From an uncultured Sphingomonadales bacterium (GTDB lineage Bacteria; Pseudomonadota; Alphaproteobacteria; Sphingomonadales; Sphingomonadaceae): a stretch of DNA of 64,000 bases. The notes beneath the pieces were generated by a model, which saw only the letters and a list, made by a program, of their open reading frames with translations, made no database searches and was not told where the DNA came from. The stretch spans positions 1 through 64,000 of the forward strand of contig CAILBC010000021.1 in the NCBI GenBank assembly GCA_903832325.1, read 5' to 3'. The position numbers and the translations under genes are program-made. Within the stretch, counting starts at the first letter, position 1, and each line of letters opens with the position of its first letter. This document shows positions 47,243-64,000 of this stretch, one piece after another.

Positions 47243-47875
47243 ATGAACGAACGCACCACAGCCACGCCGCGCAGCGATGCGCGGCCCGAAATTGGCACGC
47301 TGTCGCGCTGGACACGCGCGGCGTTGCTGGCGTTCTATCGCCGCGAGGGCTGGCGCGCCGAAGGCACGCCACCGGCCGACGGGCGCTATGTGATCATTGC
47401 CGCGCCGCACACGTCAAACTGGGATTTCGTCTATTTTCTGGGGCTGGTTCAGGAATTGGGGATCGATGCCCATTTCATGGCCAAGCAAAGCCTGTTCCGC
47501 TGGCCGATCGGCGGCTTCATGCGCGATATGGGCGGGATCGAGGTCGACCGGTCGGGCAAACACGACATGGTGCGCCAGATGATCGACGAATTTGCCCGGC
47601 GCGACCGTTTCGTCCTGACTATCGCACCCGAAGGCACGCGCAGCCGCGTGCAATCGTGGCGCACCGGATTCTATCACATCGCGCTGGGCGCGCAGGTGCC
47701 GATGGTGGTCGGGTTCATGGATTATGGACGGCGCACCGGCGGGCTGGGCCCGGCGATCATGCCCACCGGCGATTACCGCGCCGACATGGCGCAAGTTGCC
47801 GCGCTGTACCGCGATGTGACCCCGCGCCACCCGGACCGGGGATTTCGCGATTTCGAAGCGATGATCAATGGCTGA
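47243..47875 (+). CDS. 1-acyl-glycerol-phosphate acyltransferase-like protein
   Basis: The 210-aa protein has the PlsC-like His motif AAPHTSNWDFVYF (H-T-S-N-W-D) and the PEGTRSR motif, both needed for acyl transfer to a lipid or sterol acceptor. One hydrophobic N-terminal segment. ATG at 47243 has AGGGGGGTCA-type spacing. It overlaps the next gene by 8 bp. Confidence 0.87.
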   Translation: MNERTTATPRSDARPEIGTLSRWTRAALLAFYRREGWRAEGTPPADGRYVIIAAPHTSNWDFVYFLGLVQELGIDAHFMAKQSLFRWPIGGFMRDMGGIEVDRSGKHDMVRQMIDEFARRDRFVLTIAPEGTRSRVQSWRTGFYHIALGAQVPMVVGFMDYGRRTGGLGPAIMPTGDYRADMAQVAALYRDVTPRHPDRGFRDFEAMING

Positions 47876-48362
47876 CGCCGCACGCCGGACGACTGCGCCA
47901 GTCCGCACCGAACGCGCACTGGGCTGGGGGGCGCTGGCGCTGTTGGCCGCGGTGGTGATCGCAGTGGCGCGCGGCCGCCCGCACTGGCCAATGGTGCCGG
48001 CCGTCGTGTGGATTCACCTGGCCGCGATGATCGTGGTGCTGGCGCTGACCCCGGTGCTGCTGTGGCGCCGGCGCGGCACGATCGCGCACCGCCGGCTGGG
48101 CTGGATCTGGGCTGTGGCCATGATGATCAGCGCGGTTGACAGCCTGTTTGTCCATTCCGTGCGGCCAGGCCGGTTCAGCCCGATCCATCTGCTGTCGATA
48201 CTCGTGCTGGTGGCGGTGCCCGGCGCGGTGCGCGCGGCGCGGCGGCATGATGTGGCCCGGCATCGCCGCACGATCCGCGCGCTGGCAATCGGCGCGCTGC
48301 TGGTCGCGGGGTTTTTCACATTTCCCTTTGGCCGGATGCTCGGGGCCTGGCTATTCGGCTGA
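47868..48362 (+). CDS. DUF2306-type membrane protein
   Basis: The 164-aa protein has four hydrophobic helices and the [24 protein letters not shown] stretch that marks DUF2306. Function unknown; the acyltransferase gene just upstream is co-directional and overlapping. Its end overlaps the ferredoxin gene on the other strand by 12 bp. Confidence 0.8.
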
Positions 48363-48752
48363 TCCCGCGCCAGCCGGCGGCGTGATGCGATAGCGTTCGA
48401 CCGGGTGGCCATCGCGCAAGTGCCCGGTGATGATCTGTTCAAGCACTTCGGGCGTGCACGAATGGTACCATACACCTTCGGGATAGACGACCGCGACCGG
48501 GCCGGCGGCACAGACCCGCAGGCACCCCGCCTTGCTGCGCAGCACGCCCGCCGCGCCGCCCAGGCCCAGTTCGCCCAGTCGCCGTTTCAGAAAAGCCCAG
48601 CTTTCCTGCCCCACGGCGCGCGGGCAGCACTTGTCCTTGTCGGGATCGACACACAGGAAAATGTGCCGCCGGGGGGCAAACCCGCCCAGCTGCGCCACGG
48701 TGTTGCGCGCCGCAGTCAGGTCAACGGGTTCGTTCATGCCGGATTCGTTCAT
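48351..48752 (-). CDS. Thioredoxin-like [2Fe-2S] ferredoxin
   Basis: The 133-aa protein matches thioredoxin-fold ferredoxins: Cys in [14 protein letters not shown], and CLRVC (about residues 75-80) as ligands. It could act in nitrogen, cobalamin or hydroxylase electron transfer; the partner is unknown. The ATG overlaps the stop of the thioesterase gene (ATGA). Confidence 0.83.
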
Positions 48753-49183
48753 AGAAGCGCCCAGGCGTCGAGCGCGGCCAGCATGTCGGGCCCCAGCGGC
48801 GCCGGGCGATCATCGATGATCGACACCAGCACCGATTGCGCGCTGGCAACCGCCTGGTCGTGCTGCATCAGCAGCTGTTGCAGCGTCCAGCTGGTCCGCC
48901 CGGTGGCCACCGGCGCGGCAAGGCAGACCAGCGGATCGGGAAAATGCGCCTGTGCCAGGTAATGGATCTCGATTGCGGCGACCATGAAGCGCCGCCCGCC
49001 GGGGGTGCGATCCGCACGCATGCCCGTCGCATAGGAAAAACGCACCCGCGCATCTTCAAGCATCGCGGCGATCGCCACATTGTTGATATGGTCGTTGGGA
49101 TCGAGATCGGCAAAGCGCGAGGTGACATCGACACGATGGCGATAGCGCGCCGGGTCGAGCAGTTCTGGTCCTGGGCGTGCCAT
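48749..49183 (-). CDS. Acyl-CoA thioesterase, hot-dog fold
   Basis: The 144-aa protein has the 4HBT-family motif [26 protein letters not shown] (Asp of the YbgC/4HBT group). It should hydrolyse an acyl-CoA or aryl-CoA. It overlaps the ferredoxin gene by ATGA and lies just downstream of popZ on the same strand. Confidence 0.87.
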
Positions 49184-49212
49184 GCGCTTGCGTCGGGCCG
49201 GCGGGTGGCCGG

Positions 49213-49746
49213 TCAGCCCTTTTTGTGCAGGATACGCGCGATTTCGGCGGAAACCATGCGTTCGACCATCGCCGGCAGATGATCATCCAGCCATTTCGCC
49301 AGCATCGGGCGCAGCATATCGCGCACCAGCCCCTCCAGCGAGGTTTCACCCGACCGCACGATCTGCGGGCGCGCGCCGGGCTGCGACAGGGCGGCCAGCG
49401 CGGCCAGCGAATCGCGCATGGCCGACGCCGTCACTTCGTTGAGCAGGGGGCTGTCTTCATCACCGGAATCATCGGCATCATCGGCGCCGGGATCATCATC
49501 ATGATCGGATGCGGCGTGCCGGGCATGGCCCTTGCCCCCGTGGTCCTGCGCCGGCGTGGCGCGATCGGCGCCCAGCACTTGTGCCGCGACTTCGCCCAGA
49601 TCAAGCACATCGCCCAGCCGGTCGCGTGATGCGTTGCCCGGGGGCGGACCATCGCGGCGCGCGGCTTCGGCCCGGTTGTCACGGGCGATCACTTTCTTGA
49701 TCGACGCCAGGATTTCCTCGACCGACGGTTCGCTCGACTGCCGCAT
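49213..49746 (-). CDS. popZ: PopZ-like polar organising protein (DUF2497)
   Basis: The 177-aa protein has the N-terminal PSVEEILASIKKVIARD helix and C-terminal LRPMLAKWLDDHLPAMVERMVSAEIARI helix of DUF2497/PopZ, joined by an acidic, disordered-looking linker (about 65-110). PopZ assembles at the cell pole and holds the chromosome origin in alphaproteobacteria. It lies just downstream of tolC. Confidence 0.9.
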   Translation of the reverse strand: MRQSSEPSVEEILASIKKVIARDNRAEAARRDGPPPGNASRDRLGDVLDLGEVAAQVLGADRATPAQDHGGKGHARHAASDHDDDPGADDADDSGDEDSPLLNEVTASAMRDSLAALAALSQPGARPQIVRSGETSLEGLVRDMLRPMLAKWLDDHLPAMVERMVSAEIARILHKKG

Positions 49747-49828
49747 GCCCCGTATGACCCCCTTCAGCTTTGCGAATCGCGTGGCCCCCAGCGATTAACA
49801 CCTTGGCACTCGTTGCGGTAGGGGTCGC

Positions 49829-51331
49829 TTACGGCAGCGGCCGGGGCGCCACCACGGCATCTTGCGCCGGGGTGGCGCGGGTCGAGCTTGACTGGCGCAC
49901 CGGTTCGGCATCGCGGTGCCAATCCGAAGCGTCGCGCGACACCTGGTCGAAATGAACCTGCGGATCGTAAAGCGCCGCGCCCAGATCATCATCGAGCGCC
50001 AGATCGCGCGACTGCGCCCTGCCCATAGCCGCCAGCAAGTTGAACCCGGCGACATAGGCATTGCGCCGCGCCGTGGCCAGATTGACTTGCGCGTTGAGCA
50101 GTTCCTGTTCGGCATCGAGAATGTTCAGGATCGTGCGATTGCCCACGGTGTTTTCCGCGCGCACGCCTTCAAGGCTGAGCGCGGCGGCCTCGACCGCGGT
50201 CTGGTTCAGCCCGATCGCGTCATTGGCCGCTTTCCAGCTGGCGAAATCGGCGCGCACCGTGGCGATCACTTCGCGTTCGACCGAAATCTCGCGTTCGTCG
50301 GCGGCGCCCTCGTTGGCCTGGGCGCGGCGGATTTCCGCGCTGGGCAGGCCGCCCTGATAAAACGGGATCGTCGCCTGCAGGCCCACTTGCGCGGTGCCGA
50401 CATGCGGCAGATTGCCCAATTGCACGGCCAGCGGCGGCAGACTGCCCAGATTGTTGATATAGGCACTCGATGCCACCACCGAAACCTTTGGCAGGCGCGA
50501 GGCATCGGCCGTTTTCACGTCATAGCCCGCCGCCTTGGTCGCCAGCCGCGCCGCGACCAGATCGGGATTGGCATCGAGCGCGATCTGCACCGCATCATCG
50601 GGGCTGTGCGGCAGCCCGGCGATCGGCGGCGGCGCATCCAGCGTTTCGGGCGGATGGCCAACCACCTGGATATAGCGTTCACGCGCGCCGATCAGGTTGG
50701 ATTCGGCGCTGCGCAGCGCGGCGCGGCCTTGCGCCAGCCGCGAATTGGACTGCGCCACGTCGGTCCGCGTGACGTCGCCGATTTCAAAGCGGTCGCTGGT
50801 CGCCTTCAGGTTGATTTCCAGCACTTCGACATTCTTGCGGTTGAGCGACACGACCGCGGCATCGAGCGTGACATCCAGATAGGCCGTGACCACTTGCGAA
50901 AAGACCGAGGTTTCGGTGCCGCGCAGCGAAGCCTGGCCCTGCTGCACGCGCGTGCGTGCGGCGCTGATCGCGGCGCGGGTGCCACCGCCGGCATAGATCG
51001 GCGCGCTGAACGAGGTGGTTGCCTGCAGCGTCTGGCTCGCCGAAAAATCATAGGCGCCATAGGCCTGCTTTTCGACCTGGTGGGAGTAAGACACCGAACC
51101 CTGCAGGCTGGGCAGCGCCTGCGCGCGCGCAATCGGCACGGTTTCATCGGTGGCGCGCTGCGTGGCGCGCGCCGCGGCCAGATCGGGATTGGCGCGATAG
51201 GCCGCGATCAGCGCCTCGCGCAGCGTTTCGGCATGGAGCGCCGGGGCACCGGCGACCATTATCGCCGCGCCCAGCAGCAGCAACCGCTTGCGCAGGGCCA
51301 GCCGTGCGGCCCGATCACCACCCCGATGCAA
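49829..51331 (-). CDS. tolC: TolC-family outer-membrane channel
   Basis: The 500-aa protein has a signal peptide (LLLLGAAIMVAGAPALHA, about 14-31) and two long coiled-coil halves typical of TolC. The start is not an ATG: a TTG at 51331, two bases after the pcm-like stop, has GGAG nine bases before it and gives a normal signal peptide; the open frame reaches 51574 only as shadow. It pairs with ABC, RND or MFS exporters for type I secretion or efflux. The pcm-tolC order recurs in alphaproteobacteria. Confidence 0.87.
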   Translation of the reverse strand: MHRGGDRAARLALRKRLLLLGAAIMVAGAPALHAETLREALIAAYRANPDLAAARATQRATDETVPIARAQALPSLQGSVSYSHQVEKQAYGAYDFSASQTLQATTSFSAPIYAGGGTRAAISAARTRVQQGQASLRGTETSVFSQVVTAYLDVTLDAAVVSLNRKNVEVLEINLKATSDRFEIGDVTRTDVAQSNSRLAQGRAALRSAESNLIGARERYIQVVGHPPETLDAPPPIAGLPHSPDDAVQIALDANPDLVAARLATKAAGYDVKTADASRLPKVSVVASSAYINNLGSLPPLAVQLGNLPHVGTAQVGLQATIPFYQGGLPSAEIRRAQANEGAADEREISVEREVIATVRADFASWKAANDAIGLNQTAVEAAALSLEGVRAENTVGNRTILNILDAEQELLNAQVNLATARRNAYVAGFNLLAAMGRAQSRDLALDDDLGAALYDPQVHFDQVSRDASDWHRDAEPVRQSSSTRATPAQDAVVAPRPLP

Positions 51332-53773: not shown

Positions 53774-55138
53774 ATGGCCAGCCTTTCCGATCCTTTCCCC
53801 GAGTTTGCAGCCGATCCCGCAGCACCTGCGGTCGGGCACGTGCCCGCGCGGCAAGTGCTGGGATCAGCCGTGGCCTTGTGGCTGTGCTATTTCGTGCTGA
53901 TCACGATGCGGTCGCTCGTGGTCGAACTGGGCGAATTTTCCGATCTGCTGTGGCGCCGCGCGCTGGTGACGCTGGCCGGCATCGTGGTCACGCTGATGGC
54001 CTGGCAATTGCTGCGCTGGTTTGACGGGCGCGCCATCGTGGTGCGGCTGAGCGCGGCGGTGGTGATCATGCTGCCCGCCGCGCTGGCGCTGGCGGCGGTC
54101 AACCAGGCCGCCTTTGCCCCGCTGGAGGCGCAGATGTTCGCGCGGCTGACTGCCGCGCCCGGCGCGCCATCGCCGCGCATCGAACCCGGATCCAAAGTGC
54201 GCGTGCGCCACGATCTGTCGGGCAACCTGCTGATCGATATCGACGACGGCGCATCCCCGGGGGGGCAATCCCCGTCATCAACCGCCCCTGGCAGGCGCCC
54301 CCCGCCAGCAACCGGGTTCACAAAGCCGGTGACCGTGATCCAGGACCCGGTGGACCACGAAGGGCTGTGGCGCCAGCTCACCGATGTTGCGCTGGGCCGC
54401 TATTTTCTGCTGATCGCCTGGGCCGCGCTCTATCTCGCGCTGGGCAATGCCGAAATGGTGCGTGCCGCCGAACGGCGCGAGGCGGAATATCGCCGCGCGG
54501 CAAAGGCCGCAGAGCTGCGATCGCTGCGGTACCAGGTCAATCCGCATTTCCTGTTCAACACGCTGAATTCGCTGTCAGCGCTGGTGTTGACCGGGCGCGG
54601 CTCTGCCGCCGAACAGATGATCCAGGCGATGTCGAGCTTTTATCGCCATAGCCTCGCCGCCGATCCCACCGGCGATGTGCCGCTGGCCGACGAAATCGCG
54701 CTGCAGCGCCATTATCTGGATATCGAGGCGGTGCGCTTTCCCGACCGGTTGCGCACGGTGTTCGACGTGCCCGATGATCTGTCGCTCGCCCCGGTGCCGG
54801 GGATGATCCTGCAGCCGCTGGTGGAAAATTCAATCAAATATGCCGTGGCGGCGACCACTCGCGCGGTCACCATCACCATTGCCGCCCACACCGAAGGGCG
54901 GCAGCTGATCCTGACCGTTTCCGACGATGGCCCGGGCAAGACCGGCACCGAAACCGGCACCGGGATTGGCCTGGCCAACGTGCGCAGCCGGCTCGCCGCG
55001 CGGTTTGGCGCGATGGCCCAGGTTGCCAGCGGCCCGCTGCCCGAAGGTGGCTATGCCACCACGCTGGCCCTTCCGCTGCCCGCCCCCGTTCCCCTGCCGG
55101 AGCCAAACCGCCAATGCCGCCCTTCACGAAACCGGTGA
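53774..55138 (+). CDS. LytS/YehU-type sensor histidine kinase
   Basis: The 454-aa protein has three to four N-terminal membrane helices (about 30-50, 60-80, 90-115, 215-230), a phosphoacceptor His258 in QVNPHFLFNTLNSL and an HATPase domain (about 345-440, with LQPLVENSIKYAV and VSDDGPGKTGTETGTGIGL). The pattern fits the LytS/YehU group, in which the His lies in the His_kinase domain. The TGA stop overlaps the regulator ATG by one base. Confidence 0.9.
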   Translation: MASLSDPFPEFAADPAAPAVGHVPARQVLGSAVALWLCYFVLITMRSLVVELGEFSDLLWRRALVTLAGIVVTLMAWQLLRWFDGRAIVVRLSAAVVIMLPAALALAAVNQAAFAPLEAQMFARLTAAPGAPSPRIEPGSKVRVRHDLSGNLLIDIDDGASPGGQSPSSTAPGRRPPPATGFTKPVTVIQDPVDHEGLWRQLTDVALGRYFLLIAWAALYLALGNAEMVRAAERREAEYRRAAKAAELRSLRYQVNPHFLFNTLNSLSALVLTGRGSAAEQMIQAMSSFYRHSLAADPTGDVPLADEIALQRHYLDIEAVRFPDRLRTVFDVPDDLSLAPVPGMILQPLVENSIKYAVAATTRAVTITIAAHTEGRQLILTVSDDGPGKTGTETGTGIGLANVRSRLAARFGAMAQVASGPLPEGGYATTLALPLPAPVPLPEPNRQCRPSRNR

Positions 55139-55926
55139 TGACCATGACCGAACCCCTGCCCCTGCACACGCTGGCCTTGCGAACACTCATTGTTGATGAC
55201 GAGCCGCTGGCAATCGAGCGGTTGCAGATCCTCGCCGCGCGGCTGCCCGCGCTGCACGTGGTCGGCACGGCCAGCGACGGCGCACAGGCGCTGCGGCTGG
55301 CCGAAGCGTTAAGCCCCGATCTGCTGCTGCTCGACATGACCATGCCCGAAATCGACGGGCTGACCGTGGCGCGGCGGATGACCACGCTGGCGCTGCGCCC
55401 GGCGGTGATTTTCGTGACCGCGCACGACCAGTTTGCCGTCGAAGCGTTCGATTGCGATGCGGTGGACTATGTCTTGAAGCCCGTGGCTGCCGATCGGCTG
55501 GAACGCGCGGTGGAGCGTGCGCTGGCGCGTCGCAGCGGCGCGGCCGATGCCCCGGTGGCAAACCCGTCACAGCCGGGCACGCCCGATGCCGGCGCCTGGC
55601 TGGAAGAATTCTGGGTGCCGCACCGCAGCGAGCTGATCCGGCTGGCCGCGCGCGATATCGACCGGATCGATGCCGAACGCGATTATGTGCGCCTGCATGT
55701 CGGGCCGCGTTCGTACCTGATGCTGCACACCATCCAGGGGCTGGAGGACCGGCTCGATCCGGCGCGGTTCATTCGCCTGCACCGGTCAACCATCGTGCAG
55801 CGCGATCGCATTGCCGGCCTGCGCCATGACGGGCTGGGGGTGTGGTCGGCCGAACTTGCCGATGGCACCGCGCTGCGCATCGGACGCACCTACCTGCCCG
55901 GCGCGAAGGCCATGGCAGGACGGTAA
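55138..55926 (+). CDS. LytTR-family response regulator
   Basis: The 262-aa protein has a receiver domain (Asp66 in LLLLDMTMPEIDG, Lys114 in YVLKPV) and a C-terminal LytTR DNA-binding domain (about 155-255, with AARDIDRIDAERDYVRLHV). It starts at 55138 on the stop of the kinase gene, so the two are translated together. Target unknown; the divergent neighbours are the fumarase and the catabolic cluster. Confidence 0.92.
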   Translation: MTMTEPLPLHTLALRTLIVDDEPLAIERLQILAARLPALHVVGTASDGAQALRLAEALSPDLLLLDMTMPEIDGLTVARRMTTLALRPAVIFVTAHDQFAVEAFDCDAVDYVLKPVAADRLERAVERALARRSGAADAPVANPSQPGTPDAGAWLEEFWVPHRSELIRLAARDIDRIDAERDYVRLHVGPRSYLMLHTIQGLEDRLDPARFIRLHRSTIVQRDRIAGLRHDGLGVWSAELADGTALRIGRTYLPGAKAMAGR

Positions 55927-55935
55927 CGGTTGCCT

Positions 55936-57237
55936 TCAGCGCGGTTTGAGCCTGAACGGCGCGAGCAGCAGCAGCGCGATCAGCGATCCGCCGGCCATGA
56001 CCATTGCCACCACCGGCAGGCCAAGCTGCGCCTTGAACAGCGCGCCCGCCAGAATCGGCGAGAGCGCCCCGCCAAACCGGCCAATCCCCACCGCAAAGCC
56101 CGTGCCCGTGGCGCGCACATGGGTGGGGAACCCGGCGGCAAAGCTGGCATAGAAGCCGACGATTGCGGCATTGGCAAAGACCATGCCCAGCGATGCGGCA
56201 ATCGACCAGACCAGCAGCGACGATGCCTTGTCATGCGTGCCGAACAGCGCCACGCCGACCACCGACCCGGCCAGCACCACCAGCGTCGGGCGCTTGATCC
56301 CGAACTTGTGCATGAACACGCCGAAACAGGCCCCGCCGATCGCCCCGCCAATGTTTGCCGCAGTCAGCACCCCCGCCGCCTCGCTGGGTGAATGGCCCAG
56401 ATCGGCAATGATCTTGGGCGCCCATTTGAGAATGAAATAAAAGCTGATCGCGTGAAAGAAATAGCCGAAGGTCAGCACCAGGGTCGTACCAATCAGCCCG
56501 GGCTTCAGGATGTCGAACACGCTGGCCCGGGCCTGTTCGGGTTCGTGCGGGGCGAGCGCGGCCAGGTTCGGCAGGCGGAACCGGGTAAGCGTGCGGTTGA
56601 TCGCATCAAGCGCACCGGCCGGCCGCTTCTGATCGAGAAAGGCCGGGGTTTCGGGCACGAACAGAAACACCAGCGGAATGAATAACGCCGTTGCGCCCGC
56701 GCCCAGCGCAAACACCGCGCGCCAGCTTTGCCCTTTCAGCAATTGCTGCACGATCAGCCCGCCGATCACCCCGCCCAGCGGATAGCCGATGACCATGATC
56801 GCCATCGCCAGGCTGCGGTGTTTCAGGTTCGACATTTCGGCCGCCACCGCGTTGATCGAGGCGAGCATGCCGCCGATCCCCAGCCCGGTGACCAGCCGCC
56901 AGATCGACAGCGTCTGCGGGCTGGCCGCGGTGGTTGCCATGACCATGCCCAGCGTCATCACGCACAGGCACAGCAGCATGGCGCGCCGCCGCCCGGCCAG
57001 ATCCGCAAGGCCGCCCAGCACGATCGAGCCGACCACCATGCCCCACAATTCCATCGACAGCACCACGCCCAGCGCTTCGCGGCTGACATGCCATTCCCTG
57101 GCAATGCCCGGCGCGGCAAAGGCGCTGGCCAGGATATCGAATCCGTCAAGCGCATTGAGCCCGATGGTGATCGCCACGGCCAGCCATTGCAGCGGGTGCA
57201 TCCGCCCCTGTTCGATAACGTTGCGCGCAGTGGTCAA
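55936..57237 (-). CDS. MFS transporter of the aromatic acid/H+ symporter type
   Basis: The 433-aa protein has 12 helices. The segment ALDGFDILASAFAAPGIARE with DGFD and the loop GGLADLAGRRRA (helix 2/3 motif) are characteristic of the aromatic-acid symporter family (PcaK/BenK type). It should import an aromatic acid, fitting the upstream catabolic genes. It is last in the minus-strand cluster, 44 bp after the alcohol dehydrogenase gene. Confidence 0.9.
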   Translation of the reverse strand: MTTARNVIEQGRMHPLQWLAVAITIGLNALDGFDILASAFAAPGIAREWHVSREALGVVLSMELWGMVVGSIVLGGLADLAGRRRAMLLCLCVMTLGMVMATTAASPQTLSIWRLVTGLGIGGMLASINAVAAEMSNLKHRSLAMAIMVIGYPLGGVIGGLIVQQLLKGQSWRAVFALGAGATALFIPLVFLFVPETPAFLDQKRPAGALDAINRTLTRFRLPNLAALAPHEPEQARASVFDILKPGLIGTTLVLTFGYFFHAISFYFILKWAPKIIADLGHSPSEAAGVLTAANIGGAIGGACFGVFMHKFGIKRPTLVVLAGSVVGVALFGTHDKASSLLVWSIAASLGMVFANAAIVGFYASFAAGFPTHVRATGTGFAVGIGRFGGALSPILAGALFKAQLGLPVVAMVMAGGSLIALLLLAPFRLKPR

Positions 57238-57281: not shown

Positions 57282-58295
57282 TCAGGGCGCGATCAGGATC
57301 TTGCAGTCATGCGTGCGGCGGCGCAAGGCTTCGAACCGCGCCGGCGTTTCCTCCAGCGAGACCGTGCCGGTAACCAGCAGGCGCGGTTCGATCGCCCCTG
57401 CGTCCAGCGCATCGAGCGCCGCTTCGTATTCGCCGCGGGTAAAGAACGCCGAAGTGATCAGCCGCACTTCCTTTGACAGCATGGCAAAGCTGTTGAACGT
57501 ATCGGGCCGGGTGCACAGCCCCAGCAGCAGGATCGTGCCGCGATTGCGCACCTGGTTCACCGCCTGCGCGATCAGCCCGGGCATCCCCACGCATTCAAAC
57601 ACGATATCGGCCTTGCCGCCCAGCGCGCGTTCGGCGCCGCCAACGGGATCGGCCGGATCGACCGCAAAGCCGGTGGCCCCCATGCCCAGCGCGCGGGCCT
57701 GCTGATAATCGGCGATATCCTGCACCACCACTGCGCCCGCGCCCATGCGCCGCGCCCAGAACGCCACGGCCAGCCCGATCGGCCCGCCCCCCAGCACCAG
57801 CACTTTGTCACCAGCGCGCAGGCCCGCCATGTTCACCCCGTGCAGCGCAACCGCCAGCGGTTCGATGATCGCGCCGTCGTCCAGGCTGACCGATCGGGGC
57901 AGGCGGATGCACTGGTTGGACCGGGTCACGGCATATTCGGCATAGCCGCCGCCCTGCAGGCCAAACCGGTCGCACCAGGCGACTTCGCCCGCGCGGCACG
58001 ACGCACAAGTGCCGCACGATTGCAGCGGGATCACCGAAACCAGATCGCCGATCGCCAGCGCGTTGCCGGACCCGGTGGTGCCTTTGCCCAGCGCAACCAC
58101 TTCGCCGGCGAATTCGTGCCCCAGCACGTCGCCCGCGCCTTTGCCATAGGCGGGGTCTTCGGTCATGTGCAGGTCCGACCCGCAGATGCCGCAGCGCGCC
58201 ACGCGCACCACCACTTCGCCTTCGCCCGGGGTCGGATCGTCCAGCGTTTCCACAGTCAGGGGCTGGTGCAGCCCCTGCATCACGACAGCTTTCAC
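57282..58295 (-). CDS. Zinc-dependent alcohol dehydrogenase, MDR family
   Basis: The 337-aa enzyme has the catalytic zinc region GICGSDLH, GHEFAGEVVALG, a structural zinc Cys set (C93-C107 region CGTCASCRAGEVAWC), and the Rossmann motif VLGGGPIGLAV. It should oxidise an alcohol intermediate with NAD(P)+. Overlaps the SDR gene by ATGA. Confidence 0.92.
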   Translation of the reverse strand: MKAVVMQGLHQPLTVETLDDPTPGEGEVVVRVARCGICGSDLHMTEDPAYGKGAGDVLGHEFAGEVVALGKGTTGSGNALAIGDLVSVIPLQSCGTCASCRAGEVAWCDRFGLQGGGYAEYAVTRSNQCIRLPRSVSLDDGAIIEPLAVALHGVNMAGLRAGDKVLVLGGGPIGLAVAFWARRMGAGAVVVQDIADYQQARALGMGATGFAVDPADPVGGAERALGGKADIVFECVGMPGLIAQAVNQVRNRGTILLLGLCTRPDTFNSFAMLSKEVRLITSAFFTRGEYEAALDALDAGAIEPRLLVTGTVSLEETPARFEALRRRTHDCKILIAP

Positions 58296-59134
58296 CTGAA
58301 ATTGCCCAGCTGCACGCCGCCGTCGATCACCACGTGGGCCCCGGTCATGAAGCTGGACGCATCCGATGCCAGCAGCAGCGCCAGCGGCTTGATCTGGTCG
58401 GTTTCGGCCATCGCGCCCAGCGGAATGGTCTTGTCGAACGCGGCCTTGGCCACCGGGTTCTTCTTGACCCAGCCGCCGCCGATATTGGTGATGAACGGGC
58501 CCGGCGCGATGGCGTTCACGCGGATGCGGTATTCGGCCAGTTCCAGCGCGACGTGGCGCACCATATGCAGCACGCCCGCCTTGGCCGGCATATAGGCCAT
58601 GCCCACAATGGGTTCATTGATGATGCCCGCATTCGATGCGGTGGCGATGATCGACCCACCGCGCCCTTGCGCCTTCATCACCCGCGCCGCTTCGCGCATG
58701 GTGTTGAAAATGCCGGTCAGATTGACCCCCATCGACCGGTCCCAATCGGTTTCGGGGTTCAGCGTGTCGATCTGGCCATCGGCGTTGCGAAACCCGCCCG
58801 GGTTCCAGAATCCCGGGCCCGGGTCCATCCCGGCATTGGCAAAGCAGATGTCGAGCCCGCCGCAGGCGGCAACGTGATCGTCAAACACCGCGCGCATCGC
58901 CGCACGGTCCCGCACATCGAGCGTGGCGGCGCGCGCCTTGCCGCCCAGTCCATTTTTCAGACCGGCGACGATCCGGTCAGCCTCGCGCTGCGCGCCTTCG
59001 CCATCGATATCGGTCAGCGTGACGGTCGCGCCGGCTTCGGCCATGGCCTCGGCATAGGCAAGCCCGATGCCCGATGCCGCGCCGGTAACGATTGCCGATC
59101 GCCCGGCGATGGCAAACTGTTCAAGCGTGGTCAT
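58292..59134 (-). CDS. Short-chain dehydrogenase/reductase
   Basis: The 280-aa enzyme has TGAASGIG (cofactor loop), NAG in CFANAGMDPG, and the catalytic Ser (TASNAGI), Tyr and Lys in AYMPAKAG. It has an unusual long insertion around residues 100-125 (PGPGFWNPGGFRNADGQ). Overlaps both neighbours (ATGA). Confidence 0.92.
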   Translation of the reverse strand: MTTLEQFAIAGRSAIVTGAASGIGLAYAEAMAEAGATVTLTDIDGEGAQREADRIVAGLKNGLGGKARAATLDVRDRAAMRAVFDDHVAACGGLDICFANAGMDPGPGFWNPGGFRNADGQIDTLNPETDWDRSMGVNLTGIFNTMREAARVMKAQGRGGSIIATASNAGIINEPIVGMAYMPAKAGVLHMVRHVALELAEYRIRVNAIAPGPFITNIGGGWVKKNPVAKAAFDKTIPLGAMAETDQIKPLALLLASDASSFMTGAHVVIDGGVQLGNFR

Positions 59135-60216
59135 GGCGTTTCGTCCTGTGTTGCGGCGCGTTCGGCGGCGATCATCTTGCGCAATTGGCGCCGAGCGCGG
59201 ATGCCGCCGCCATCGCCTTCGAGAACCAGCGGCTGCAGGTCCCAGAAATCCTGGCCCGCCATCAGCCGGTGGGCATCGCGGATCAGCGGCATGTCTTCGT
59301 GTTCAAACGCGAATTCCAGCGCGCCGCGCATGGCGTTGGAAAATTCGGCATCACCCACTGCGAAATCGCGCGCCGTGGCCCACAGATAATGCGTGGTATC
59401 GGCGGTTTCGGGCGTGAACGCATGGATCGAGGGCATGTTGCCCAGCTGATCGAACGGGGTGCCGGGTTCACCGGTGCGGAAATCGAACGACAGCGTGGCC
59501 GGCGCATGCCACACGACATGGCCGTCAAACGCCTGTTTGCGCCCGGCGGTGCCCAGGATCGCCGAAATCCCTTCCGACAGATAATCGTCGGGCTGCGCAT
59601 AATGGGCGTGGACCGTTTCGCCCTCTTGCCAGAACCGCCGCGCGCCTTCGGTAAAGGCGCTTGCGACCAATGCCGGATGCACGAAATTGGCGTGGCTGAG
59701 ATCGAGGATATTGTCGGAATAGAGCTCGTAATGCCCCTCGGCCGTAGTGCTGCCGCGCACCGCATCCCAGCGCGGATCGGCCAGCCAGGCAAAATCCGGA
59801 ATCCTGCTGTCATCGGCGCGCGCCGGATCGCCCATCCAGATCCACAGCAGCGCATGGCGTTCGACCAGCGGATAAGTGCGCACCGAAACCTGCGGCACCG
59901 CCCCGCCCGGATGCGGATTGAACACGCATGTGCCATCGCTGCCAAAGCGCAAGCCGTGATAGGGGCATTGCAGCGCGTCATCGATCACCGCACCATCGCC
60001 CAATGGCGCAAAGCGGTGCGGACAGCGCCCGCCGATCGCCTGCGCCACGCCCTGGGCATCGCGAAACAGCGCCACCGGCTCTTCCAGAAAGACTTTGGCC
60101 TGCGGCGCATCGCCCAGGCCATCGGCCCAGCCGGCCACATACCAGGCATTGCGCAAATAGACCCCGCGCGGGCCATCCAGCTTTGGCGTCGCCGTGCGTG
60201 TCGTCGTCATCGCCAT
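59131..60216 (-). CDS. Rieske-type aromatic oxygenase (vanillate demethylase-like)
   Basis: The 361-aa oxygenase has a Rieske centre (C65/H67 in CPHR and C84/H87 in CPYH) and the mononuclear iron site D172, H175 and H180 in NILDLSHANFVH. The length and layout match O-demethylating monooxygenases such as VanA rather than the two-subunit dioxygenases. A reductase is not encoded nearby. The ATG at 60216 has AAGGCGA upstream; 60210 is possible. Confidence 0.9.
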   Translation of the reverse strand: MAMTTTRTATPKLDGPRGVYLRNAWYVAGWADGLGDAPQAKVFLEEPVALFRDAQGVAQAIGGRCPHRFAPLGDGAVIDDALQCPYHGLRFGSDGTCVFNPHPGGAVPQVSVRTYPLVERHALLWIWMGDPARADDSRIPDFAWLADPRWDAVRGSTTAEGHYELYSDNILDLSHANFVHPALVASAFTEGARRFWQEGETVHAHYAQPDDYLSEGISAILGTAGRKQAFDGHVVWHAPATLSFDFRTGEPGTPFDQLGNMPSIHAFTPETADTTHYLWATARDFAVGDAEFSNAMRGALEFAFEHEDMPLIRDAHRLMAGQDFWDLQPLVLEGDGGGIRARRQLRKMIAAERAATQDETP

Positions 60217-60235
60217 TCGCCTTGAAGTCAGCCGC

Positions 60236-60766
60236 TTACAGGTAAAGCGCCGGGTTGATCGGCAGGTCGTGTTCGCGGCAATAGCTCTCATAGTGGTTGA
60301 TGAACCACCACACATCGAGCGTTTCGACGTGGTTGCCGTTTTCGTCGAAGAATTCGTTGGCGCCCTGCATGTGAAACAGCGCCTTCATCCCGTTCGGATC
60401 ATCGGTCACCAGCGTATGCGCGGTGCCCGGGGTTTCGGTGATGAATTCGCCCGGTTTGCACACCCAGTCGTATTCCAGATAGCGAAAGCTGCCTTCCAGC
60501 CCGATCGCCCAGACTTTGCCGCGGTGTTTGTGCGTGCCGATCACCCCGGGGCCCTTGATCCACAGGATGTTGACATAGATGTTTTCGCGCACGTCAAACG
60601 CCAGGTGGCGGATCGCCGCGTTGTCGCCAAACGGCACCCACGGGCTTTCGGCTTCGCTGCCGCCCACATAGGTGCCTTCGACCCCCAGCCGCTTGATCGT
60701 GTCGCCATACAGTTCGGGCACGGCGACAATCTTGTAGGCGCCGGACGGCGGTGCGGTCATCGACAT
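60236..60766 (-). CDS. Cupin protein of the 2,4'-dihydroxyacetophenone dioxygenase family, copy 1
   Basis: The 176-aa protein has cupin motif 1 (H79 and H81 in GVIGTHKHRGK) and motif 2 (GEFITETPGTAHTLV with H117). The family includes 2,4'-dihydroxyacetophenone dioxygenase, a non-haem iron enzyme that cleaves a C-C bond next to the carbonyl. Three His ligands are present. It lies 19 bp upstream of the Rieske gene. Closely related to copy 2. Confidence 0.88.
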   Translation of the reverse strand: MSMTAPPSGAYKIVAVPELYGDTIKRLGVEGTYVGGSEAESPWVPFGDNAAIRHLAFDVRENIYVNILWIKGPGVIGTHKHRGKVWAIGLEGSFRYLEYDWVCKPGEFITETPGTAHTLVTDDPNGMKALFHMQGANEFFDENGNHVETLDVWWFINHYESYCREHDLPINPALYL

Positions 60767-60777
60767 GGGTCTGGCCT

Positions 60778-61314
60778 TTAAATGTACAGCTTGGGATTGA
60801 GCGGAATGCCGTGCGCCTTGCAGTGCGTTTCGTAGTGGTTGATGAACCACCACACGTCGGTCGTTTCGACGAAATTGGCATTTTCGTCATAGAATTCGAT
60901 CGGGCCCTGCATCCACCCGAACAGCTTCACGCCTTCGGGATGGTCGGTCACCAGGGTGTGGCTTTCACCCGGAACTTCGAGAATCAGCCCGCCGGGCGAG
61001 GCGACCCAATCGTATTCCAGATATTTCACGCTGCCTTCCAGGCAGACCATCATGATCGTGCCGCGGTGCAGGTGCGTGCCGATGACGCCGGGTTCCTTGA
61101 TCCACAGGATGTTGGAAAAGATCCCCTGCCGCACGTCAAAGGCCAGATGCTTGATCGCCGCCTTGTCGCCAAACGGCACCCACGGGCTGTCCACGTCCGA
61201 CTGCGCGTCGATATAGCGGCCGCCGGGGCTGAGCCGGGCGACGATTTCGCGATGGGCAAACGGCACATCGACAATGGCCGCCTTGGTGGACGGCGGCGCG
61301 GTCATCGTGTTCAT
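60778..61314 (-). CDS. Cupin protein of the 2,4'-dihydroxyacetophenone dioxygenase family, copy 2
   Basis: The 178-aa protein has H81 and H83 in GVIGTHLHRGT and H119 in LEVPGESHTLV, the same iron ligands as copy 1. The DVWWFINHYE segment at the C terminus is shared with copy 1. The two probably arose by duplication. Adjacent copies are 11 bp apart on the same strand. Confidence 0.88.
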   Translation of the reverse strand: MNTMTAPPSTKAAIVDVPFAHREIVARLSPGGRYIDAQSDVDSPWVPFGDKAAIKHLAFDVRQGIFSNILWIKEPGVIGTHLHRGTIMMVCLEGSVKYLEYDWVASPGGLILEVPGESHTLVTDHPEGVKLFGWMQGPIEFYDENANFVETTDVWWFINHYETHCKAHGIPLNPKLYI

Positions 61315-61325
61315 GGCAGGTGTCC

Positions 61326-61859
61326 TTATCGGATCAGAGTATCGACATAGTCGGCACCGATGCCGTTGCCGGCATAGTGCGCGCGGGCCGCGGCGATGTA
61401 GTCATAGACATCGTAATGCCCGACGGTGTTGCCTTCATCATCCAGCCACATCAGCGGGCCCGACACGACGAAAAACACCTTCATCGGCTCCGGGCTGTCA
61501 TAGCATACCAGCGTGTGCGATTCGCCCGGCGTTTCATAAACGAAGTCACCCGCGGTCGCGGTCCATTCGTGTTCCAGATAGGCCCATTTGCCGCTGATCG
61601 TGTAGGCCCAGATCGGGTGCGGGTGGTAATGGCGGCTGACCAGGCCGGGGCCCGATGACATCAGCACATCGGCCCACATGTTCTTGGCCGGGCTGATCCA
61701 CACCGGTTTTGACGAGACGGTTTCGGAAATCGGCACCCAGAAGCGCGGATCGCCTTCGGCAATTTTCGACGCATAGACTTCGGGAAGGCCGCCGTCCTTG
61801 AAGACTTTGTCGATCGGCTTGATGTCTTTCCAGAATTCCAGATGGGGGGATTCGGGCAT
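61326..61859 (-). CDS. Cupin protein of the 2,4'-dihydroxyacetophenone dioxygenase family, copy 3 (divergent)
   Basis: The 177-aa protein has H77 and H79 in SRHYHPHP and H115 in YETPGESHTLV. The rest is more distant from copies 1 and 2, and its C terminus is different (NTVGHYDVYDYIAAARAHYA). It is the first gene after the TonB receptor. Probably a separate activity or a partner of the others. Confidence 0.88.
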   Translation of the reverse strand: MPESPHLEFWKDIKPIDKVFKDGGLPEVYASKIAEGDPRFWVPISETVSSKPVWISPAKNMWADVLMSSGPGLVSRHYHPHPIWAYTISGKWAYLEHEWTATAGDFVYETPGESHTLVCYDSPEPMKVFFVVSGPLMWLDDEGNTVGHYDVYDYIAAARAHYAGNGIGADYVDTLIR

Positions 61860-61919: not shown

Positions 61920-64000
61920 TCAGAACTTTACGCTGAGCCGTGCGTACCATTCGGCCGGGCGGTTGTAGGTGCCGTAGATTTCGCCACCGGCAACTTGCGC
62001 CTGACCGGTGATCAGGTACCGCTGGTTGGTCAGGTTCGTGCCACCGACAGTGAAATCCCACTGCTTGCTCGGCGCCTTGTACGTCACGCTGGCGTTGAGC
62101 TGGTTGGTGGCGACGCGTTCCAGCAGGAACGTGCCTTCGGTGTCGTTGCGCATGCTCGTGGTGTGGGTGAAGTCAGCCAGGAAGACCAGGCTGCCCTTGT
62201 CACCCAGCGTCGCTTCATACCGCGGCGAAATGTTCATCTTCCAATGCGGCGCCTTGGGCAGCGGCGCGCCGGCATAGATCCCGGCCTGCAGCGGGTTCGG
62301 CGCGACATAGGCCGAGTTGCCACCGCAGAAGGCCGCCGCATTGCCGCCTTCACCGCAGATATAGGTGAAGTGGGCATCGAGGTAGCCGACCGAACCCGTG
62401 ATCGTCAGGCCATCGGCCGGAGCGACGACCGCTTCGGCTTCAAAACCGCGCACCCGCGCCTTGCCCAGGTTGGCAACGGTAGGCGAAACGCCGATCTGCT
62501 GGTTCAGCTGGATGCCGTTGTAGCTCGTGTTGAACGCCGACAGGTTAAGCTGCAGGTGACGATCAAAGAACTTCGACTTCAGGCCGATTTCGAACGTTTC
62601 CGCCTTTTCCGGGCCGAACGTCGGCGCATAGGGCAGCGGGTTCGACAGACGCGTGGTCCAGCCGCCCGAACGATAGCCGCGCGACCAGGACACGTAGGCC
62701 ATCATATCCTTCTGGGGATGGATCTGGATGCCGGCCTTGGGCGAGAAGTTGTTGAAAATGCGCGAATTCGGACCCTGCGCATAATAATCGAAGTAGTTCG
62801 CCAGCTGGCCCAGATTCGAACCGTAGCCGTTGCTTCCGCCATTGAAGTAGTTGAAATTGTTGTTGGCGGTCGGGAACCCGGTCAGCGCCGCGCAAAGCGG
62901 GCTGGGGGCGCAGTTGAACAGCTTGTAGCTGAAGCCGTTGTCATCGGCCTGGCCACCATAATAGTTCTTGTGCTCGTGGGTATAACGGCCACCCAGCGTG
63001 ATGCTGATGAAGTCGTTGAAGGTATAATCGAACTGGCCGAACGTGGCGAGCGCGGTGGTGTTGATGCGGCCCGGACCGTCAACCTGCAGCAGGCCATCGG
63101 CAAAAGTCACATAGTCATGCAGATCGCCGGCTTCGTTGAAGACATAGGCGCCCACGGTGTACTTCAGCTTCTTGTCCGCGCTTGTGCCGTTGATCTGGAA
63201 TTCCTGGCTCCACTGGTGCTGCTTCACGGTGAAGCTGGTCTGCAGGAAGTTCAGCGGCGAGCCATCGAGATCGACGCCCGCGTTGAAATCGACATTGCGG
63301 AACGCCGAGATCGACTTGATCTGCAGGTTGTCGGTCAGCTGGTCTTCCAGGGTCAGCGTGATGCCGTACTGGCGAACTTTCGAATAGTTGTTGCCGGTGG
63401 CATAGCTGGTGTCGGGGTTGCCGGTAATGAAGCGGCTGTCAAACGGCAGCAGCGGGTTCGGGTTGTTCGGCCCGGCAATGCCGGCGCCGGCCAGGCCCGG
63501 CAGCGTGTTGTAGCCCTGCACGCCGGTGCGCGGACCGCACAGCGCCTGCGCATTGCGCGCCGCAATCTGATCGGCGGTCGAGCCGATGCAGAAGTTGTAC
63601 AGCCCGCCAAACAGGAAGCCCGACGATCCGGTGATCACGTCAAGGCCGGTCTGCACCGGGAAGCCTTCGTTGGGGCCCAGGTCGTTGGCGTTCATCCCGC
63701 CGAACGGCCCCGGAACGTGCTCGGTCGTACCGAGCAGGGTGTTGGCGGTCGATTCCTGATCGACATTGGTATAGTCGGCCGCCAGCGTCGCCTTGAACGA
63801 TCCGCTGGTGTATTTCAGCTTGCCGCGCAGGCTGTAGCTGTTGTCACCGCCCTGACGGTTGCCGCCGCTGTTGTAGCCGGCCGCGTTGAACTGCGTGAAA
63901 TTGTCAGCGCTGTAGCCCGTGGCGGGGTAGGGAACGCGATACTGGTACCCATCGCGACGGAGCATGCCGAACGTCAACGACGACGTGAGGTTTTCGGCCA
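61920..64000 (-). CDS. TonB-dependent receptor, 5' end outside the window
   Basis: This is the C-terminal part (more than 690 residues) of an outer-membrane TonB receptor. The barrel ends with a terminal Phe (ARLSVKF). Typical barrel strands are visible (GAYVFNEAGDL, SITLGGRYTHEHKN, FSPKAGIQIHPQKDMMAYVSWSRGYRSGGW). No signal or plug domain is in view. It is the entry gene of the catabolic cluster and probably imports the aromatic substrate. The upstream sequence continues in frame to the window edge (AENLTSSLTFGMLRR). Confidence 0.9.
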   Translation of the reverse strand, partial: AENLTSSLTFGMLRRDGYQYRVPYPATGYSADNFTQFNAAGYNSGGNRQGGDNSYSLRGKLKYTSGSFKATLAADYTNVDQESTANTLLGTTEHVPGPFGGMNANDLGPNEGFPVQTGLDVITGSSGFLFGGLYNFCIGSTADQIAARNAQALCGPRTGVQGYNTLPGLAGAGIAGPNNPNPLLPFDSRFITGNPDTSYATGNNYSKVRQYGITLTLEDQLTDNLQIKSISAFRNVDFNAGVDLDGSPLNFLQTSFTVKQHQWSQEFQINGTSADKKLKYTVGAYVFNEAGDLHDYVTFADGLLQVDGPGRINTTALATFGQFDYTFNDFISITLGGRYTHEHKNYYGGQADDNGFSYKLFNCAPSPLCAALTGFPTANNNFNYFNGGSNGYGSNLGQLANYFDYYAQGPNSRIFNNFSPKAGIQIHPQKDMMAYVSWSRGYRSGGWTTRLSNPLPYAPTFGPEKAETFEIGLKSKFFDRHLQLNLSAFNTSYNGIQLNQQIGVSPTVANLGKARVRGFEAEAVVAPADGLTITGSVGYLDAHFTYICGEGGNAAAFCGGNSAYVAPNPLQAGIYAGAPLPKAPHWKMNISPRYEATLGDKGSLVFLADFTHTTSMRNDTEGTFLLERVATNQLNASVTYKAPSKQWDFTVGGTNLTNQRYLITGQAQVAGGEIYGTYNRPAEWYARLSVKF

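Follow-up and report, generated by a model that had tools for sequence, protein, structure and literature searches.

What does a run of three related cupin genes do beside genes for a Rieske oxygenase, dehydrogenases and transporters? This question is raised by a 64,000-nucleotide stretch of DNA from an uncultured Sphingomonadales bacterium (GCA_903832325.1), which we call the window and which covers positions 1-64000 of a 102,738-base contig (CAILBC010000021.1, here C21). We analysed it together with a neighbouring stretch, C21:60000-79999 (L090). The three genes, cupA, cupB and cupC, encode relatives of 2,4'-dihydroxyacetophenone dioxygenase (DAD), and we favour, with moderate confidence, a locus of two operons that breaks down oxidised side chains on phenolic aryl ketones (lignin-type hydroxyphenylethanones and phenylpropanones). 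Papers cited by PMC number are represented by extracts of their text.

We found CupC is 60.8% identical over 171 positions to the crystallised DAD (4p9g), and CupA and CupB are 31.1% and 28.5% identical to it, respectively. With phmmer against PDB chains, CupC found DAD 4p9g (E = 1.5e-76) and CupA found DAD 5bpx (E = 5.5e-20); judged by these scores, the likeness of the cupins to DAD is beyond chance. Among themselves, CupA and CupB share 60.0% of their residues, compared to 28.7% for CupA and CupC and 28.3% for CupB and CupC. The iron ligands of DAD, an HxH motif plus a third histidine (His76, His78 and His114), are present in all three cupins and invariant in each lineage; in CupC they are H77, H79 and H115, invariant in 68 C-type sequences. 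Similarly, all three retain Tyr93 and Glu108 of DAD, which are invariant in 86 A-type, 70 B-type and 68 C-type sequences (conservation was scored over the aligned sequences that cover each site). The initial annotation was right in its gene coordinates, in its tandem arrangement (cupC, cupB, cupA and the Rieske gene all lie on the minus strand with gaps of 11, 11 and 19 bp), in calling two cupins close and one distant, in giving all three the iron-binding histidines, and in placing them in the DAD family. Two more Cupin_7 proteins are encoded elsewhere in the genome (G000:C22:152693-153016 and G000:C26:166192-166419), and one of them outscores the window cupins.

The substrate pocket was mapped with 22 DAD residues named in PMC4219425 (iron ligands, cavity lining and polar contacts, one of which is a backbone contact). 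In the published DAD model, Tyr93 hydrogen-bonds the alpha-hydroxyl, and Trp61 and Asp63 hold the phenol OH (PMC4219425). We found that CupC keeps 18 of the 22 residues, CupA 11 and CupB 9. CupC retains both phenol-OH binders and departs from DAD at Phe43 (Ile), Val82 (Ile), Phe148 (Tyr) and Met156 (Ala); as a guess, the Ile in place of Phe43 might admit a methoxy group. CupC thus has the sequence features of a DAD-type dioxygenase (EC 1.13.11.41) and is predicted to be one.

The Trp61/Asp63 pair is absent from CupA, which has Tyr and Asn (98% and 100% of the 86 A-type sequences), and from CupB, which has Phe (80%) or Tyr (20%) with Asn (100%) in the 70 B-type sequences. Changes from DAD that CupA and CupB have in common are Ser49 to Ile, Trp137 to Phe, Tyr153 to Phe (87% in B) and Met156 to His, and Phe129 of DAD is Gly in CupB and in every aligned B-type sequence that covers the position. 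Since these pocket changes are fixed or nearly fixed in each lineage, CupA and CupB look less like copies in decay than like enzymes that would each act on substrates of their own. Because DAD's phenol-binding pair is not kept, we did not file them as DAD; they are best read as DAD-related cupins with another specificity. In the open-access literature searched, neither CupA nor CupB is assigned a function.

The cupin genes lie in a probable operon on the minus strand, with the order VOC-MFS-TonB receptor-CupC-CupB-CupA-Rieske-short-chain dehydrogenase/reductase (SDR)-zinc-dependent alcohol dehydrogenase (ADH)-MFS and its greater part inside the window; the MFS and VOC genes beyond the TonB receptor are found on the same strand in L090. 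From CupC to the last MFS gene the gaps are 11, 11, 19, -4, -4 and 44 bp (negative values are overlaps, of Rieske with SDR and of SDR with ADH). Because these gaps are short or overlapping, CupC through MFS is very probably one operon. The cupA open reading frame reaches 60853, and its likely start is the ATG at 60766, 11 bp past the cupB stop. Pfam agreed with the initial annotation on the companions of the cupins (Rieske oxygenase, SDR, ADH, MFS and TonB receptor), and for the Rieske protein both metal motifs did so as well.

A second operon runs divergently on the plus strand just outside the window; its predicted UPF0261 start is 124 bp away from that of the VOC gene. It encodes a UPF0261 protein, a biotin carboxyl carrier protein (BCCP), a biotin carboxylase (BC), a carboxyltransferase (CT) and a HAD phosphatase, and each gene overlaps the next by 4 bp. 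In PDB, the carboxyltransferase matches pyruvate carboxylase and oxaloacetate decarboxylase subunits, and the phosphatase matches chronophin/NagD-type enzymes. Rhodococcus rhodochrous GD02 processes acetovanillone and 4-hydroxyacetophenone in three steps, in which HpeHI adds a phosphate, HpeCBA carboxylates the product and HpeD takes the phosphate off again; HpeC, HpeB and HpeA are BCCP, CT and BC, and the nearest characterised homologue of HpeD is NagD (PMC9618137). A Hpe-similar pathway in N. aromaticivorans has a single-component kinase, MarK (PMC13101465). We saw no two-component kinase of the HpeHI/AcvAB type in the present genome, whose only PPDK_N protein is one 905-aa frame matched in two stretches. 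A Novosphingobium UPF0261 protein (L041) that is 75% identical to the one in this genome matches structure 9mpy at 789 bits. By analogy, UPF0261 would be the kinase of the module and is likely MarK-like.

Three plasmids have the same UPF0261-BCCP-BC-CT-HAD order, namely pBAR1 (Sphingomonas bisphenolicum AO1), pSYA3-2 (Sphingobium yanoikuyae A3) and one from Pseudomonas putida YC-AE1 (L099-L101); pBAR1 and the present genome are 65% identical in UPF0261 and 55% in the HAD phosphatase. The carboxyltransferase has plasmid relatives at 72-73% in N. humi, which itself has the cupin cluster, and at 71% on pBAR1, pSYA3-2 and another S. yanoikuyae plasmid. None of the three module plasmid records (pBAR1, pSYA3-2, YC-AE1) has a Cupin_7 match. 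Upstream of the module, pBAR1 and pSYA3-2 carry a carotenoid-oxygenase-type gene, a thioesterase and a BKACE gene; in the third record an acetoacetate-CoA ligase and an amidohydrolase adjoin the module in place of BKACE and thioesterase. Bisphenol A breakdown yields 4-hydroxyacetophenone, and S. bisphenolicum AO1 is presumably a bisphenol-A degrader. P. putida YC-AE1 degrades bisphenol A (PMC9733184). These plasmids suggest a mobile hydroxyacetophenone module. We considered BKACE as the missing last step in the present genome and rejected it; the single match is on another contig, where it shares a locus of a different type with a gene resembling 3-hydroxyacyl-CoA dehydrogenase.

A CupA scan of species genomes gave 80 cupA loci (the best 80 of 135). 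Each locus reaches 10 kb from cupA, so that carboxylase genes are mostly hidden (visible in 5 of 80); therefore, we tested co-occurrence separately in 149 whole Novosphingobium genomes. CupC orthologues (at least 81% identity) were found in 37 of these genomes and carboxyltransferase orthologues (at least 72%) in 38. Both occur together in 34 genomes, compared to 9.4 expected (Fisher p ~1e-25, kinship ignored); they share one contig in 31 of the 34, at 8.5-12.6 kb from start to start, and lie on separate contigs in 3. Aryl ketones as the substrate class thus have stronger support than the window by itself could give, since a Hpe-type carboxylase/phosphatase module lies directly beyond its end and co-occurs with CupC. 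The proposal of the initial annotation, a pathway for an acetophenone-like or related lignin aromatic, is therefore well supported at the level of substrate class.

Most hosts of cupA loci are Sphingomonadales, Novosphingobium among them; a few belong to other Alphaproteobacteria or are Halomonas-type bacteria. Cupin combinations were counted in 89 loci (L006-L090 and L093-L096), 85 of which were picked for holding CupA. All three cupins are present in 55, A and B in 14, A and C in 8, A only in 8 and C only in 4; the C-only loci are plasmid DAD loci that were retrieved by way of CupC. Hence, three tandem cupins are a regular feature of part of the genus Novosphingobium, and the initial view that three copies together are unusual did not hold. 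In a tree of the cupins, A, B and C form separate groups, with one A-type sequence beside the B clade and several inner nodes poorly supported. Of the two options first offered for the copies, a mixed enzyme or different substrates, the second is predicted to be the better, since the lineages are separate, their absences are independent, and their pockets differ at fixed or nearly fixed positions; a hetero-oligomeric enzyme is disfavoured by the same separation, by the absence of B or C from loci that have A, and by the lineage-fixed pocket differences. The locus of Novosphingobium sp. FSW06-99 (L006) has the closest cupA (94%), but neither cupC nor the SDR of the cluster was found between its TonB receptor and ADH. 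In the Halomonas-type loci (L077, L083, L084 and L087), a minimal cupA-SDR-ADH unit stands with no other cupin or Rieske gene in view, and its substrate may differ.

The Rieske protein matches VanA_C (3.2e-50; 171 bits against a cut-off of 23.5) and Rieske (2.4e-16) in Pfam, contains both the [2Fe-2S] motif CxHx(n)CxxH and the mononuclear-iron motif DxxHxxxxH, and has dicamba O-demethylase DdmC as its best PDB match (221 bits). Its gene is present in 41 of the 80 cupA loci by tblastn (at least 63% identity) or in 39 by family count. Among the 149 genomes, 33 have a Rieske orthologue (at least 65%; one of the matches contains a stop codon), and these comprise 30 of the 37 CupC genomes and 3 genomes without CupC, the overlap being counted by hand. 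The enzyme is thus frequent but dispensable, which fits an O-demethylase for methoxylated substrates, and its sequence makes an aryl-ether O-demethylase probable. Carbonyl and polyol reductases are among the PDB matches of the SDR, and the ADH matches ketose reductase as well as (R,R)-butanediol dehydrogenase, among others.

Eight of the 80 loci have a LigL-like C-alpha dehydrogenase at or beyond the end of the cluster: in L031 it comes directly after ADH, and in the other 7 a relative 67-71% identical to the L031 enzyme lies further downstream. The L031 enzyme, the sole copy of the 8 compared with PDB, matches 4yae, a 'C alpha-dehydrogenase' that we take to be LigL, at 287 bits. The conserved order IclR, quinone oxidoreductase, VOC, MFS, AraC, TonB receptor, CupC, CupB, CupA, Rieske, SDR, ADH, LigL, counted from Saro_1863, puts AraC at 1867 and LigL at 1875. 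Published tags of N. aromaticivorans are Saro_1863 for IclR and Saro_1867 for AraC (PMC12352068), with ligL as SARO_RS09390 and SARO_RS09410 equal to Saro_1879. By tag arithmetic, not by sequence, these fit a cupin cluster next to ligL in that species. The present genome also carries LigA/LigB-type genes and a FAD monooxygenase that we read as PobA-like.

In the reading that we favour, the TonB receptor and the MFS proteins would import the compound, and SDR and ADH would convert alcohols, diols and ketones of the side chain into one another. Any aryl methyl ketone would be phosphorylated by UPF0261 (probably MarK-like), then carboxylated and then dephosphorylated. In CupC, the two side-chain oxygens of an aryl alpha-hydroxyketone would coordinate the Fe(II), and O2 would split the compound into an aryl acid and a short acid, a reaction modelled on that of DAD, which cleaves 2,4'-dihydroxyacetophenone to 4-hydroxybenzoate and formate. 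CupA and CupB may cleave in this way compounds whose side chain or ring is unfit for CupC. The Rieske enzyme would strip ring O-methyl groups, and the acids could then enter protocatechuate 4,5-cleavage.

As a special case of this reading, SDR and ADH might supply the cupins with aryl alpha-hydroxyketones to split, either by oxidation of aryl vicinal diols or by reduction of diketones, with the carboxylase module serving a parallel substrate. We regard this as possible though short of probable. The ADH resembles butanediol and polyol dehydrogenases, and a DAD-like gene is followed by '2,3-butanediol dehydrogenase' in Agrobacterium and follows a thiamine diphosphate (ThDP)-dependent enzyme in Ensifer and Sulfitobacter (in Paraburkholderia it precedes an MFS gene); these neighbours in Rhizobiaceae and Roseobacteraceae would suit alpha-hydroxyketone chemistry. 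N. aromaticivorans reduces G-diketone to GP-2/GP-1 and a diol, and according to PMC8612281 the enzyme that cleaves the side chain of GP-1 or the diol is still to be found; the cluster that locus tags, rather than sequence, place beside ligL would be a fitting source. However, the same paper proposes vanillin, an aldehyde, as the product, whereas DAD chemistry yields an acid. A different role for the Rieske enzyme, hydroxylation of the acetyl methyl of hydroxyacetophenones to give CupC its alpha-hydroxyketone, appears improbable: its gene directly follows the cupins in sequence, accompanies CupC in most genomes and is of the methyl-oxidising DdmC/VanA type, but 7 of the 37 CupC genomes do without it, 3 genomes have it without CupC, and its best structural match is an O-demethylase.

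The cupins might instead form an oxygenolytic end of the carboxylase pathway, in which CupA, CupB or both would split the aroylacetate (a beta-keto acid) made by the module into an aryl acid and glyoxylate and so replace CoA-dependent last steps. The carboxyltransferase in 34 of the 37 CupC genomes points this way, as do the cupin-less plasmids, two with BKACE and thioesterase and one with acetoacetate-CoA ligase and amidohydrolase beside the module, the unlinked position of this genome's only BKACE match, and the CupA and CupB pockets unlike that of DAD. N. aromaticivorans F199 is reported to lack VceA/VceB homologues, and the enzymes after vanilloyl acetaldehyde are described as yet to be identified (PMC11837543). 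We nevertheless consider this scheme rather unlikely, given that the literature searched reports no DAD-family cupin with a beta-keto acid substrate, that the search of the genome covered linked genes and would have passed over unlinked CoA ligases, and that cupA-type genes stand with SDR and ADH in loci where no carboxylase was seen. That the cupins are regulatory or inactive ChrR-like proteins rather than catabolic dioxygenases is very improbable. Pfam names the domain 'ChrR Cupin-like', with CupA just below that family's cut-off, but the ChrR model itself gives CupA a poor score of 15.5 bits (cut-off 124.5) and does not report CupB or CupC, the iron ligands, Tyr93 and Glu108 are invariant in every lineage, and CupC is close to a proven dioxygenase.

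The aryl-ketone locus with CupC as a DAD-like enzyme draws on the operon geometry, the CupC-DAD pocket, the linked Hpe-type module, the plasmid modules, the 9mpy match, the LigL neighbours and the LigA/LigB/PobA-like genes. It also draws on Novosphingobium MBES04, in which a DAD-like gene is the most induced under a lignin dimer (44.58-fold) and has a promoter that responds most strongly to phenylpropanone and also to 2,4'-dihydroxyacetophenone (PMC10866074). Taken together, these points make this reading reasonably likely. Several observations weigh against it. The Rieske gene is missing from 7 of the 37 CupC genomes and seen in about half of the cupA loci. CupA-SDR-ADH occurs in Halomonas-type loci without carboxylase genes in view, and therefore the core unit need not serve aryl ketones. 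CupC occurs without the carboxyltransferase in 3 genomes (assemblies 67%, 81% and 99% complete) and the carboxyltransferase without CupC in 4, and the co-occurrence test takes no account of phylogeny. The kinase role of UPF0261 is an assignment by analogy, and the four-gene cluster of MBES04 is likened by description, not by sequence.

A bolder proposal makes CupA and CupB the founders of two new 3-His cupin dioxygenase lines. They would complete aryl-ketone catabolism with an O2-driven cleavage, whose targets might be aroylacetates or side chains of the propanone type, would replace the CoA-dependent steps known from other bacteria and would be the missing side-chain-cleaving enzymes in the lignin catabolism of Novosphingobium; we put it forward tentatively and think it doubtful in this full form. 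The locus offers linked candidates for enzymes sought in N. aromaticivorans, for G-diketone/GP-1 cleavage (PMC8612281) and for vanilloyl acetaldehyde processing (PMC11837543). At the residue level, we predict that CupC takes phenolic alpha-hydroxyketones and that CupA and CupB act outside its substrate range. If true, lignin side chains would be shortened in an oxygen-dependent, CoA-free way that would be useful for lignin conversion strains, and part of the proteins labelled '2,4'-dihydroxyacetophenone dioxygenase family', a label on many plasmid matches, would gain a function.

Table 1. Genes of the two operons, with window positions for the first and contig (C21) positions for the second.
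Feature	Position	Strand	Evidence
TonB-dependent receptor, C-terminal part	61920..64000	-	Pfam TonB_dep_Rec_b-barrel 1.9e-37; gene runs past the window to ~C21:64595 (tblastn of a Novosphingobium TonB-dependent receptor on L090)
CupC, Fe(II) cupin of the DAD-like 3-His type, predicted dioxygenase for aryl alpha-hydroxyketones	61326..61859	-	Cupin_7; phmmer 1.5e-76 to DAD
CupB, divergent DAD-family cupin with altered pocket	60778..61314	-	Cupin_7; Phe129 to Gly
CupA, divergent DAD-family cupin	60236..60766	-	Cupin_7 just under cut-off; phmmer to DAD
Rieske non-haem iron oxygenase, DdmC/VanA_C type, probable aryl-ether O-demethylase	59131..60216 (ORF to 60315)	-	VanA_C and Rieske Pfam
Classical SDR dehydrogenase	58292..59134	-	adh_short_C2 5.5e-54; TGxxxGxG and YxxxK motifs
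Zn-dependent polyol/butanediol-type dehydrogenase (ADH)	57282..58295	-	ADH_N/ADH_zinc_N; Zn motifs
MFS transporter nearest the aromatic acid/H+ symport family	55936..57237	-	MFS_1; TIGR00895 286.7 bits, below cut-off 418.55
UPF0261 ('Tm-1-like') protein	C21:66762-67976	+	Pfam UPF0261 N and C domains
BCCP	C21:67973-68461	+	Biotin_lipoyl
Biotin carboxylase	C21:68458-69792	+	Biotin_carb_N/C
Carboxyltransferase	C21:69789-71258	+	PYC_OADA and HMGL-like
HAD phosphatase, NagD-like	C21:71255-72103	+	Hydrolase_6

Gene families around cupA were counted in the 80 loci as lower bounds, since the gene caller was crude and sometimes chose antisense frames (families 11 and 12); the names AraC, IclR, VOC, MBL and quinone oxidoreductase were assigned by eye. 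We found MFS in 63 loci, ADH in 58, SDR in 56, TonB receptor in 55, AraC in 52, UPF0261 in 42, VOC in 42, quinone-oxidoreductase-like genes in 38, IclR in 35 and MBL hydrolase in 22. With tblastn, neither the window nor L090 yielded an AraC or IclR gene of the kind found in other loci. A sensor histidine kinase and a LytTR-type response regulator, named by eye from their translations, adjoin the MFS end of the operon at 53774-55926 (+). Relatives of the two (71% and 82%) are found at the corresponding position in L006, where the window MFS has a relative of 84% identity; the pair may reflect plain synteny or be a regulator.

A vanillyl-alcohol-oxidase-type flavoprotein lies within the cupin locus in 25 of the 80 cupA loci, and that of L028 matches 9ffk at 837 bits, a structure deposited with work on VAD and Novosphingobium nsVAO (PMC7617285). 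In the present genome the best relative (78%) is of the vanillyl-alcohol-oxidase/PCMH type and is on contig C43 (L111, ~47600-50700), where it is preceded by a cytochrome-c-like gene and followed by a gene related to the family-14 (MBL-like) hydrolase. Because of this location on another contig, we rejected it as an operon member. The pinoresinol pathway was considered since such flavoproteins include pinoresinol hydroxylases, and it was dropped because the PinZ-PinU route uses a reductase and a lignostilbene-type dioxygenase and 'cupin' is absent from the main text as extracted (PMC12607616). The words 'cupin', 'TonB' and 'marK' do not occur in the main text of PMC12710314.

Compared with known systems, the MBES04 cluster G-II likewise has a DAD-like gene in a Novosphingobium operon, but that operon has four genes, three of them hypothetical, and the comparison is by description only (PMC10866074). 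The Hpe/Acv pathway of R. rhodochrous GD02 and Sphingobium SYK-6 shares BCCP, CT, BC and a NagD-like phosphatase with the present cluster (PMC9618137, PMC13101465), a likeness of domain families rather than of sequences compared with HpeCBA or AcvCDE. The present locus differs in having UPF0261 in the place of the kinase and linked cupins, and hpeE/hpeF-like genes were not seen adjoining it. The MarK route of N. aromaticivorans is from the same genus and has a single-component kinase, and the UPF0261 gene is probably the same gene, as the 9mpy match and the linkage suggest. A three-cupin cluster is not mentioned for DAD in the extracts of PMC4219425. DAD of Alcaligenes sp. 4HAP (4p9g/5bpx) is like CupC in its length (177 aa), iron histidines, Tyr93, Glu108 and Trp61/Asp63 pair. 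The elements of the locus are thus of known kinds, and what is new is their combination and the two uncharacterised cupin lineages.

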